Of a DNA stretch of 64,000 nucleotides, positions 51,234 to 57,137 are shown in pieces. Location: contig NW_017264201.1 of assembly GCF_001619985.1 (NCBI RefSeq), forward strand, positions 620,001 to 684,000, in the 5' to 3' direction. The position numbers were made by a program, and so were the translations under genes. The notes below the pieces were generated by a model that was not told where the DNA came from, ran no database searches, and was given only the letters and a program-made list of their open reading frames with translations. Each line of letters starts with the position of its first letter. Position 1 is the stretch's first letter. The stretch is from Xylona heveae TC161. Its lineage: Eukaryota; Ascomycota; Xylonomycetes; Xylonales; Xylonaceae.

Positions 51234-51520
51234 GTTATATCTTTCAGACCTATATTTGACAAAATGCACACTAAGACCTTCTTATAGTAGTGTGCTCCAG
51301 ACTGCACGACTTGCGGAATGCGGATTGTGGCAATTGACAGTAGACAATTGGCATTTTGCAAGAGAATCAAGACTGTCATTTGGATCCTGTCCATTTATAC
51401 TGTACCGATTATGTCAGTGAGCACAATAGCGCTCCTCGGACTGAAGATCTCTCAACATCTCGTTGATCGAGATGAAATCAAGCGGCCAAGTCGGCTAACA
51501 ACACATCTAATATCAAGATA

Positions 51521-51677
51521 GCCGGCGAAGAAGAAGATTCAGGTGATGATGAAATGAGTGATGAGGATGGTGAAACCAATGTTGCTTTGCAGGATTGCAA
51601 TGATTGTAATACTAATATTGATGATCTAATATCATTTACAACTCCTACTCATTTTCAGCCTACTTTTTTGTCTTAAC
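51521..51677 (+). pseudogene. Acidic open tail downstream of the endonuclease remnant
   Basis: A short frame, IAGEEEDSGDDEMSDEDGET, continues to an in-frame stop at 51675-51677. It looks like the C-terminal acidic tail of a once-coding protein, lies in a different frame from the pieces just upstream, and may be the C-terminal extein or an unrelated fragment. Weak evidence. Confidence 0.3.
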
Positions 51678-52211
51678 CACCATCCATATCTATTCTAAAG
51701 CCCACAAGATCAGCCAGAAGCTCTCAACCTTTGCAACAAAGGAAACCTTCAAACCTTCCATGTCGTTTATAAATTTCAAAGGTGAGTTCATTCCTACATG
51801 TCTCATTACCTTCCTCACCTCACCCTTCTCTTACTTTTCTCTCATGATAGTTTTACCTTGCTCTTAGTTCACTCTTATCTTACTCTTACTCTACTCTTAC
51901 TTTCTACTAACATGCATTTAACAATAGAGCAACCCTGCTTTCTAAATTTCTACCACCTACATTAGTACCAAACATAGTTCTAGTAAGTTAAACCTAGCTG
52001 TATATGTAAGAGTCTACCACTAATCACTGAGGAATCACTACAAAGATCACTACAATTGTGCTGCACTACCCTACCGTCATTTTCTCACACCAGAATTTTA
52101 ATTTGTCTTGTAAGGAAACATTCCCTAGATTTACTAGCAACATTTTGTACTAATACTTTACTTCAAAGATTACTCCAACAAAATGACGCTACTGCCAGAC
52201 GCATACCACCC
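51678..52211. other. AT-rich spacer with TTACTC low-complexity tract
   Basis: Contains CTTACT/CTCTTA repeats near 51840-51910. No gene seen. Confidence 0.5.
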
Positions 52212-52634
52212 ATGAAATCCTGCGCCGAAAAAGCCGAACTACGATTCCGCCAAAATCACAGACACTGGGTCCGGCTCAGGGATTCGGCAGTCCAAGATGG
52301 GTGGCCATTCAATGTCCCTGAGCTGGTAAAGGAGCCAATAACTCAGGGCAAAACTAGTGGTAAGCCTTACAAGGTAACTACAATGGTAACTACGACTGAC
52401 TTGACTGAATGCAAACCAGCGGAGGCATTGCGTGAAATCCAGTTTTATCAAGAAAGCAGCGGCCTCTTTCTCCCCAACTTGGCTTTCTCCCGTTTGGTGC
52501 GAGAAATCGCCATGAGCTACAACACAGAGCTGTGATTTCGACAGGTTGCAATGCTTGCATTGCAGGAGGCGACAGAGGCGTATCTTGCAGCATTTTTCGA
52601 TAGTTCGTGCAACTTGAGCATTATTTTGAGGTGA
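52212..52634 (+). pseudogene. Diverged histone H3-fold reading frame with internal stop
   Basis: From 52413 the frame reads KPAEALREIQFYQ, then LPNLAFSRLVREIAMSYNTE-L, a stop at 52533-52535, F-R-Q and VAMLALQEATEAYLAAFFD, ending at 52634. This aligns without gaps to the H3 fold: KPGTVALREIRRYQ, KLPFQRLVREIA, TDLRFQ, ALQEA-EAYL, FED. The stop (TGA) sits exactly where H3 has Arg after TDL, so a CGA-to-TGA transition explains it. Upstream, GKTSGKPYKV faintly recalls the H3 tail. The C-terminal helix (AIHAKRVT and beyond) is absent. It is far too diverged for a canonical H3 and has no introns visible. It could be an old duplicate of H3, of CENP-A or of another H3 variant. Similarity was judged by eye. 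Confidence 0.7.
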
Positions 52635-53326
52635 TGCATTCATCAGATGCCAATCTTCTATAACATGGATCTCTGCTTTCTGCGGATTGTGGTCGCGTTG
52701 TCGTTCAGACTGATGGTCAGAATCAGATCAAGTAACTGGTCGAGACATTGCTATTGTCATTCCCCTTGTCTGCTTGCCTGCTTGCTTGGAAATAAGGAGT
52801 TTGGCTACACAAGTTGGCAAGAATGCCCACTGCTCGAGCTGATGGATCGACAGGTTTAAAAATTTGATTCTAAAAATTTGATTCTACAACTGAGGCTTTT
52901 AAACTGTCAATGGCATGTACAGAGCATGGGTTCTTTGATTCATCAAATTGATGATTTATCGAATTATCGAATCGTCGAATCCATATATCGCCTTTCAAAA
53001 TCCTTTGTAATGACGCTTTGCGATTTTCAGACTGAGGAGATCATCAAAAGGCAATGTGCAGTCCATCTCGGCTCTCTGCCTATTTGAAACAATTATATAT
53101 TGATTGACATGTATGCGGCGAGACCATTTGACGTCCCGCCGCTGGGACTACTTGCAAACTCTCAGGAATCCAGACAGAATGTCACAAAAGGGCGAATTAT
53201 GAGTTAGAACATGTGTCAAGATCCAAGATTCAAGAATCGGAGTTAAATCCGCAAGAATTGAAGACAACTTTGATGAATCATGAGCTGGAAGTACATGGAC
53301 AGAGAAAAAATGTGATGGAGCCACAT
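52635..53326. other. AT-rich non-coding segment
   Basis: No supported gene. A small tandem duplication of AAAAATTTGATTCT occurs near 52856-52885. Confidence 0.5.
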
Positions 53327-54225
53327 CTAGGGTGTCCGTTGGTCTTGTCGGGGTTGGTCTTTAAGGTAAAGACCAAGGTATTGCCAGGCTGCAGGTCACA
53401 GCTTGCTTGTTCCCAAAGAGGCTGCGCTGAGACCCTTACCACCCTTGCAGAGACAAATTTGACAAAAGCTGAAAAGCAAGGCCGCAAGAGTTCTGGAACT
53501 TCTGGCCGAAATTGCCAATGAAGCTTGAAAAGAATGCTTTTCAGTGCTCCCAGGTTTAGGTCTTTTTAGAATCATGGTGCTGCGGTGCACCGTGCTTCGG
53601 ACTTGTCTGTTTCGTTTTTTGAACAGGCTGCAAGCTTAATTTTCAAAAGACTGTACAGAAATCCAAAACGTTCGGGACCTTGCGTATAATTTCCGAAACG
53701 GTGAGGGGACAGCTTCTGGAGTGAGAAAGGCGGCGAAACAGTTAAGCCTTCACAGAAAGGGTTCGACCGTTCGACGGAGACGAGTCGCAAGACGAGCACC
53801 AATTTCTTGGGAGACTCTTTGGTCTCCCGATAAGAGAAAACACCACTAGGGTGTCCGTTGGGGCCGGTGGAAATCGGTGGTCTTTGGTCTTTTACACACT
53901 CAACCCGGACCAGGTGTGCAAATTTGAGAGGAGGATCAGACCAGGAACATGCCTCCACCGGTCTGTGATCACCACCAACATTGCCCACTTATATAGGATA
54001 TACATCAACAATCAGTCAGCAAAGTTATGCTCATAATGCAGGTTATTTGCCCAAAATATACACATATATACCAGATTTATGCATAGATGGGTTTAGTTAA
54101 AAAAACCGCCCACGCCCGGTCTGGAGGTTGGTTTTACCTTATAGACCAACCCAGACCAAAGAACACCTTGGTGTGGAGCATTTCGGGCACAAGAGCGACC
54201 CAGACCAGACCAACGGACGCCCTAG
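53327..54225. mobile_element. Non-autonomous terminal-inverted-repeat element (TA target)
   Basis: The left end at 53327 reads CTAGGGTGTCCGTTGGTCTT; the right end, reverse-complemented from 54225, reads CTAGGGCGTCCGTTGGTCTG. They match at 18 of 20 positions. Both ends are bounded by TA, as in Tc1/mariner/pogo-type insertions. A second left-end copy starts at 53846 (CTAGGGTGTCCGTTGGGGCC), so either a 380-bp element (53846-54225) sits beside a solo end, or one element is nested in another. Subterminal hairpins occur (GGTCTTTA/TAAAGACC near 53360; GGTCTGG...CCAGACC near 54118-54157). No transposase coding sequence is inside, so it is MITE-like and depends on an outside enzyme. Confidence 0.7.
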
Positions 54226-54468
54226 AAAAGACTCAAAAAGGGAGATCGTCTGGTATATTTTGATTTGGGCTGCTGTGGGTTTAAATGACGGTATAGTTGG
54301 ACATGAAAATGGAGGACGGAGGATGGATGATGTGGCTTGCACAGACAAAATAATGAGGAAATTGAGAAACGAAGAAACGGGGAGAGGAGAATATGCAAAA
54401 GAGAAAAAGAGAAAAGAGATGGAAATGGCATTATTCGTTCAAGTCTATACTACATGACCAGAAATGCG
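54226..54468. other. Downstream spacer of the kelch gene
   Basis: AG-rich on the plus strand; likely 3' UTR of the kelch gene. No gene. Confidence 0.5.
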
Positions 54469-57137
54469 TTATACGTCAATTGTAAAATTTGATATCTGTG
54501 AGTAGTACGCGCTGATGCCGAGGTCGAGCAGGAAAGTATCGTCAAACACGCGTCTAGTTTGAATTGAGCTGTTAGTACGCATTACAGTCAATTGGCTATT
54601 CAGTATCAAGGAATTCCAAGACGTAGAAATGGGTATGAGTGTACACGGGGGACAATATAATCACCGGCACATCTGAATTGACGACGAAGATTTACTCACC
54701 CATCGTATCCTCCGACAACGAAGAGCCTTGAATCGTACAGGACAGCAGCATGATACCCCCTCGGACTGGGCGCCGCACCATATACTTTTCTCTTATCCCA
54801 CTGCATAGTCACGAGATTAAGTAGCAGCAAGTCGTTTGAATACTCGACACCGTCATGGCCACCAAAGACGAACAAATAACTCCCCACAACGGTCGCGGTA
54901 TGACTCAGTCGCGGAAAAGACACTTCGATATTGACGCTTTTCCAAACCAGCGTCTCGACATCAAATATCCACACGTCGCGGAAGCAGTCTACACCATCTG
55001 AGCCGCCGTAGACAATGAGTTTCGAGCCGACCATATTCGCCGTATGGTATCCTCTGGCCGTGGGACGCGAAGGGGAGGCCGAAGAAGCAGAAACATTCTT
55101 CGTCGTAGTCAGTCCGTCCTTGCCCTTGGCCGTAGTGGTGGTAGTAGTGGCACGGGATGAAGACCCAGCACTGATGAGTTTCCACGTTGCGCGATTGAGA
55201 TCCGTAAGGTCCAATCTCCACACATCATTCAAGGCGCGCACGCCATCTCCGCCGCCAAACACGTATAATCCGCCCTTGTACACGCAGGCGGTATGCGCGC
55301 GGCGTTTCGATGGCTGGGGCCCGTTGATTTTGGGTTTCTTGTATCGCAGATTGACCGTATCGAGGACATATACGTCGTTGAAATATGAAGGCCCGTCGCC
55401 ACCGCCAAAAATGACAATCTTCTTGCCTACGGTGTTCATTGTCATTGCGCGCAGCGGAAGCGGGATCGTGCCCTGGCAGGGTGGCGTGGTCCAGTACATG
55501 CAGTCTGCGTCAAGAACGGCGAGCTCGTTGAAACACGCTTTGGAGTCGCATCCGCCAAATACGTAGATATTGCTGCCCACGGTGCACATTGCATGCGCGC
55601 GTACAGGCAGGCGGTCGTGACCCAGGCTACGGGCGCGCGACCAGTACATGGCCCCGGGCGGCGCGGGCTCAACTTTTGGCCCTTTTTCGGCGTCGTATAG
55701 AGCAGGAAGTTGTGTGGGTGGATGTCGTTTAGCCCGCGGCTGGTAGGCAGGCTCGGGCGGAGGCGCGGGCGGGTCGGGTTTGAAGTTGAACGCCGAAGTA
55801 GATTTTGGAACCTTGAACCAGGACATTGACGCCTCAATATCGCTCTTCTTCACCTTCTTCTTCACCTTCTTCTTCTTCTTCGTCTTTTTCGAGGACGATT
55901 TTTGATTCGAGGCTGTTTTTGTCGTGGCAGTTGGGTTGGGTGAGGTTGATCTCGTCGGTCCATCGGGGTTTAATACAGAAGTTTCGGGAATAGGAGACAA
56001 CCCGAGGTCGGAGGAAGATTTGTTGCTAACGTTGGGCTTGAGTGTCGACATGTTTTCGAGGGACGGCGTTGACAGGTTTCTACTCTGGGATGCTTGTGAT
56101 GATGGTTCCTGTGCGCGACGGGGCTCTGCAATGGTGTTTCCGACGTTGGAATTAGAAGAGTTGTCCTCCTCATTGTTAGACGTAAGCGCCGTCTGAGACA
56201 TGTTTGGAGTTGTCTTCGATCGTAGAGGAATAGATTCAGGAGTTTCCGTTAGTGTTAGAGATGAGACATTACTAGGCTTTTGTGGAACCTTTTTTCTTTC
56301 CAATTCGTCATCATCTCGCATGAGTGTCTCAGGGGGCACGATTCTTCGTGTCAGCGGTTGCTGCGGCGCGGCAAATTGGTCGAGATAAGATACATCAGGC
56401 ATTGTCTTCTCTTTCAAGTGAGCCGGTACCGCCTCTTCAGCTTCGCTCTCGCTCTCATCGCTGCTTTCGGAAGGTGAGTCGCTGATTTCTTCAGGTTTCC
56501 TTGCCGAGGGCTGAGTGGTCGGAAGTAAAGGAGATGACCGCGGTTCAGGAATCTTGTTTCCAGTTGACGGGTCCTTTTGCACTCGCTTCAAAGGCAGTAC
56601 GAGCTTTGCCCGTCGAGCCACTTTTCCAATAACAGATCCTTTCGTGGCGCCTTTCTTTGCCCTCTGTTCTCTTTCTTCCGAAGAGCTGCCTTCAGATTCT
56701 TCCTGCGGGCTTGCAGTGAGAACCTCTCTCCTTGGACTGGGTCTTCGTTCCAGCGTGGGCCTATTCCTAAACGCTGCCTTGCCCATCGTACCATGACCGA
56801 TAGGATCTGTGGGCGGCGACAGTATGGGCGAGCCCAGGGGGTATGCAGGAGCAGTAGGGAAACCGCGTTCATTCCCACCCTCTCTATCGGTGCCGCCTGC
56901 GGTGCGGGGTCTGGAGAACAAACTGGCAGCATCACGAGGCTGCGGAGATGCGCGGCCTGTAATGAAGCTAGATTTGCCATCTGCAGGATCTGTTGGCTTT
57001 GATGTCATGTTCGCTGACGCTGCAGCCACTCGACTTGAAGACGCGGCTGACGACGGCGCAAGTGAAGACTGACTTGATCCTGCCGTGAGATTTTGCCGAC
57101 TTCCAGCGCTTTGAAATTTCCAATTCGATGGCTCCAT
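54469..57137 (-). CDS. Kelch-repeat protein
   Basis: Exons (minus): 57137-54700 and 54553-54469; 840 aa. The first ~460 residues are disordered (Ser/Pro/Arg/Glu-rich) with a strongly basic KKTKKKKKVKKKVKKSD patch. Six kelch repeats then form a probable beta-propeller. Each has the G-G and Y/W hallmarks: IYVFGGCDSKACFNELAVLD; IVIFGGGDGPSYFNDVYVLD; LYVFGGGDGVRALNDVWRLD; LIVYGGSDGVDCFRDVWIFD; LFVFGGHDGVEYSNDLLLLN; LFVVGGYDGRVFDDTFLLDL. The second exon completes the last repeat, which supports the splice. Repeat 3 to 4 is interrupted by a Ser/Thr/Lys-rich loop. Such proteins in fungi serve in cell polarity or Ras signalling; no specific role can be assigned here. Confidence 0.88.

Follow-up and report, generated by a model that had tools for sequence, protein, structure and literature searches.

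How did an H3-like frame broken by a stop codon come to lie in this part of the Xylona heveae genome, and to what gene did it once belong? We examined this in a window of 64,000 nucleotides (the whole stretch of DNA analysed, C9:620001-684000) and by searches of the genome, which comprised 24.3 Mb on 17 contigs. The earlier note on this DNA had placed the frame in a gene-poor block, and this was borne out: no open frame of at least 230 codons was listed between 46934 and 54696. Scans of the whole window for tRNAs and Rfam families found nothing. The host has an H3 gene on C2, with an H4 gene nearby, as well as a CENP-A gene on C8, both of which appeared intact. As set out below, the relic is very probably a fragment of H3L, an H3-like gene that was part of the hAT DNA transposons of this genome.

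The H3 fold that had been read from the letters was confirmed by a profile search. In a genome scan, PF00125 matched C9:672407-672625 above the cut-off (E 5.8e-12, 50.1 bits), with one TGA inside the match. Scored separately, the two halves of the relic stayed under the Pfam cut-off (E 0.0016 and 7.1e-4), and the best match of the first half to solved H3 chains had an E value of 1.4e-5. From Ala47 to Phe104 the relic aligned to host H3 without gaps, with 30 of 58 residues identical. The profile match and this identity revealed an H3-type histone fold that has clearly diverged from host H3. The gap-free alignment from KPGTVALREI to the FED motif that the earlier note had proposed, with about half of the residues kept, stood over this range, except that its KP sits in a putative intron. 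When 52360-52419 was removed as a GT-AG intron, the frame read KTSAEALREI.

The extent first proposed, 52212-52634, contained a real relic, yet the homology exceeded it, beginning at 52191 and running through a second putative intron into the last exon (NANLL). The nearest relative was a relic on contig C10 (C10a), with 77% DNA identity over 52191-52649. The DNA similarity to C10a began at 52191, the point where hAT similarity stopped, and at relaxed settings it ended at 52659, with a second in-frame stop at 52661. The window copy was broken at both ends. Its parts and its surroundings are as follows.

51543 to 52190, plus strand: hAT-1 fragment with the end of a transposase frame and the sequence that follows it, 77-78% identical in DNA to copies on C1, C5 and C6.
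52191 to 52359, plus strand: what is left of exon 1 of H3L (the tail region), with 75% identity to C10a across 169 bases; its start was lost where it meets the hAT fragment.
52360 to 52419, plus strand: putative phase 1 intron in codon 45, GT-AG, 60 bases, 90% identical to C10a and in the same place in the C11 relic.
52420 to 52602, plus strand: exon 2 of H3L, with the larger part of the histone fold; it matches PF00125 and aligns to host H3.
52533 to 52535, plus strand: in-frame TGA at the Arg83 position (H3 numbering).
52603 to 52646, plus strand: putative phase 1 intron in codon 106, GT-AG, 44 bases.
52647 to 52663, plus strand: beginning of the final exon (NANLL), as far as an in-frame TAA; the remainder of the fold is missing.
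53846 to 54226, no strand assigned: short transposon in the neighbourhood of the relic, both ends of which match those of the C10 hAT-2 element.

In C10a, an ATG occurs 18 bases ahead of the point equivalent to 52191. Exon 1 resembles the H3 tail only by visual comparison in the window copy and C10a, and more clearly in C11. A motif like GTAACTACAATGGTAACTA was also seen in the first intron of the window copy (52360-52419) and of C10a, and upstream of another relic on C10 (C10b).

Family and protein searches showed that H3L is present as several dispersed copies. Five dead genes were found on four contigs, namely the window copy on C9 and the following four.

C10, from 446395 and at about 448.6 kb: C10a and C10b, a tandem pair.
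C5, about 466.5-467.1 kb, plus strand: one H3L.
C11, about 438 kb: one H3L.

All five relics have Pro at position 63, which is absent from host H3 and CENP-A, and all five have the putative phase 1 intron in codon 106. Both splice sites of the codon-45 intron were present in C9, C10a and C11; by eye, the donor in C5 was AT, not GT, and only an acceptor was seen in C10b. After splicing, with its two stops retained, the C11 relic could be followed from a TTRK tail almost to the end of the fold. A relaxed DNA match of 54% identity pointed to a tandem repeat of 2 kb on C10, but was not trusted outside the gene.

The shared features bear on whether the relic is a decayed copy of the host canonical H3 gene, one of the origins that the earlier note had offered. 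Host H3 has introns in codon 44, near codon 8 and near codon 119, and the first of these sits only 3 bases upstream of the H3L codon-45 intron, which would suit such a descent. The observed identity would suit it as well, since neutral simulations in which host silent sites were saturating reached 30 of 58 in 166, 200 and 261 of 2000 runs under three transition weights. However, the codon-106 intron is absent from host H3, the C11 relic showed no intron near codon 8 or codon 119, Pro63 is common to the five relics, and their similarity to one another went beyond the neutral null in most of the tested pairs. A dead CENP-A-like centromere histone, also raised earlier, agreed with one observation, in that loop 1 of C10b (C10:448679-448873) is as long as that of host CENP-A; in its tandem neighbour C10a it has H3 length. 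The window copy itself has the shorter loop 1 of H3, with Phe and without Trp, and its identity was 0.53 over 57 codons to host H3 and host CENP-A alike. Moreover, the apparently intact CENP-A gene on C8 has different introns, lacking both the one in the codon-45 region and the one in codon 106. Because of loop 1 and the introns, we set both origins aside: descent from canonical H3 is very improbable, and a centromere histone is slightly less credible still. The other suggestion of the earlier note, a diverged, lineage-specific gene of H3 type that left H3 and then died, agreed well with these results.

What had been overlooked was the transposon. Each of the four relatives is located inside or next to a hAT element, and the window copy adjoins a hAT fragment. 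On C5, an element of 7,605 bases (C5:459946-467550) is bounded by terminal TAGGCTGTAGAATGG and inverted TAGGCTGCAGAATGG, and contains hAT sequence on the minus strand, common to C1, C6 and C11, together with H3L on the plus strand. The end sequence occurred exactly at three places in the genome, all three being hAT-1 ends, and with up to 2 mismatches at 67 places, against 31 for a reversed control pattern. By eye, the flanks of the element differ and show no target duplication. On C11, H3L lies beside the same hAT as on C5, and a single end was seen, at 437370. Three contigs also carry the hAT-1 end motif, with one mismatch, in roughly their first 2 kb (C8:2011-2025, C9:1678-1692 and C16:1565-1579); at the C8 and C16 starts, the sequence adjoining it matches the C5 element.

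The second element, C10:434917-451952 (hAT-2), has 14-bp inverted ends TAGGGTGTCCGTTG that differ by one transition, and its 8-bp flanks, ATCGCATC and ATCACATC, a putative target duplication, are alike at 7 of 8 bases, the difference again being a transition. These ends were the best of 9 candidates from a scan that allowed RIP-type changes. The element contains both C10a and C10b as well as diverged pieces of hAT transposase (seven protein matches, 34-47% identity, best E 1.7e-15). Nested within it is an LTR retrotransposon with 514-bp repeats that are 91% alike; a homologue on C1 scores RVT_1, and we read the nested copy as gypsy-type. Without this insertion the element measures 9,456 bases. 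Broken open frames without a Pfam match lie on the minus strand between the two H3Ls (C10:447016-448158) and may correspond to the 'central ORF' in a Pyrenophora element.

H3L therefore lies between hAT ends, with transposase, in two families, C5 and C10, and in both the transposase and H3L are arranged head to head, pointing apart. This arrangement argues against a former host H3 variant that was never in a transposon, and that was duplicated and died in AT-rich blocks where hATs are found merely since such blocks collect both. That origin would account for the position of the window copy outside any pair of transposon ends, for introns kept as in an ordinary gene duplicate, and for the nested repeats that fill these blocks. 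Against it stand the identical head-to-head order between hAT ends of two families and the published hAT elements, which hold the same content. We regard it as unlikely, and prefer an H3L gene that belonged to the transposons.

Around the window copy, the traces of hAT elements were fragmentary. The hAT-1 fragment matched the C6 frame at the protein level (61% over 56 amino acids, E 1.7e-20), and the C6 frame in turn matched PF05699 Dimer_Tnp_hAT (E 1e-7); the window frame alone (51476-51673) had no Pfam match. When the window was searched for the hAT-1 end, a single match with 3 mismatches appeared, as expected by chance, and no transposon end-pair around the copy and no hAT-1 end beside it was found. 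As the window copy lies outside hAT ends and only adjoins a hAT-1 fragment, it was classed as a family fragment and not as an element. There was also a mismatch between neighbours, the hAT fragment being of the hAT-1 family and the H3L of the C10 (hAT-2) type. In addition, the two point in the same direction, unlike the arrangement in C5 and C10. Together with the lack of a flanking transposon end, these points speak against the transposon reading, as do the C5 flanks without a duplication, the single end on C11 and the tolerance for RIP-type changes in the scan behind the C10 ends. Given the fragment of the other family and the shared direction, a rearrangement in the window is likely. Farther along, a further single end of C10 hAT-2 type was observed at 53328 (window 53328-54226), and the region 52650-54650 has at least 39 matching places in the genome, itself included.

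The earlier note had placed the stop on a conserved Arg codon and attributed it to a C-to-T change, CGA to TGA, of the kind made by RIP. The placement at the Arg83 position was retained, but since both C10a and C10b read TGT there, a change from CGA cannot be asserted. RIP has acted in this genome: between hAT pieces of C1 and C5, 57 of 58 differences were transitions, and the same count was obtained between C1 and C6. Compared with the window as a whole (0.65), TpA/ApT was raised in the examined stretches of C5, C10 and C11 (1.00-1.44); their substitution index was 1.02-1.37 against 1.31 for the window, and was not lowered in all of them (C11, 1.37). From the window copy to C10a, 62 of the 112 differences were C to T or G to A changes, 14 ran in the reverse direction and 36 were transversions. 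The window copy itself carried no RIP signature, with a TpA/ApT of 0.55 and a substitution index of 1.68, higher than in 591 of 636 window stretches, at a GC content of 0.48. RIP was accordingly rejected as the cause of the TGA. Taken together, these observations suggest that the transposons would have carried and copied H3L, and that RIP might then have struck copies in AT-rich blocks. Separately, a short piece of H3L would have been stranded in the window, where it may have lost both ends through rearrangement and acquired its TGA.

Whether H3L was maintained before it died was examined through the amino acid identity of the relics. For three pairs the neutral null never reached the observed identity in 2000 runs (C9-C10b, C9-C11 and C10b-C5); it did so twice for C9-C5, once for C10b-C11 and 51 times for C9-C10a. 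The near-identical pair C5-C11 behaved neutrally (1568 of 2000). These were 7 of the 10 possible pairs, C10a-C10b, C10a-C5 and C10a-C11 being left out. Between the window copy and host H3, a laxer null than the saturating one described above gave 0 of 2000 three times. Counting against selection, intron 1 is 90% identical over 60 bases between the window copy and C10a, and the exons 75-76%. Given the stricter comparison with host H3 and the better-kept intron, H3L was probably under selection before it died, though this falls short of proof, and that selection may date from a time when H3L was still a host gene. The similarity among relics above the neutral null hints that H3L was a resident gene which selection maintained. 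Judged by the fold alone, the product of a living H3L would most likely have been a histone of H3 type, paired with H4. No working histone is made from the window copy.

The family fits a known kind, the hAT-borne H3-like genes of fungi. The text of Manning et al. (2013, PMC3538342) describes hAT elements of Pyrenophora tritici-repentis that carry an H3L which is neither H3 nor CenH3. By that description, rather than by sequence comparison, the two systems are alike in holding a diverged H3-like gene between hAT ends beside a transposase, and in a lengthened tail, seen here in C11. They differ in that 26 near-identical and mostly intact copies are described there in elements 5.6 and 2.3 kb long (PMC3538342), whereas the five copies here are dead and the elements longer. 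In Pseudocercospora fijiensis and relatives (Mycosphaerellaceae), many RIP-killed, intron-less H3 copies in hATs are described in the text of Dhillon et al. (2019, PMC6710886). As reported there, those elements resemble the present ones in their RIP-damaged copies in AT-rich blocks, in holding one or two H3-like copies each and in the intact host H3; they are about 9.5 kb long with an 8-bp target duplication, close to the length of the C10 element without its retrotransposon. In contrast, the hundreds of copies there lack introns and were read as a captured transcript (PMC6710886), and the copies here are few and have two introns. CENP-A (CenH3) is likewise a fast-evolving H3-type histone, but it differs from the window H3L in loop 1 length, Trp and introns.

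In a search of part of the literature, by title and main text, we recognised no further hAT-borne H3-like cases and found no report of an intron-bearing H3L in two diverged hAT families. The retained introns, the two diverged carrier families and the relic similarity above the neutral null are possibly new. The same introns and the same head-to-head position in two families with strongly diverged transposases also speak for a further reading, which we offer tentatively and consider rather doubtful: H3L might have been a long-standing working gene of the hATs instead of a passenger, inherited by both families, selected, and perhaps altering chromatin at the element. The copy in the window is no more than a dead piece; the family makes it testable whether a transposon benefits from bringing its own histone.
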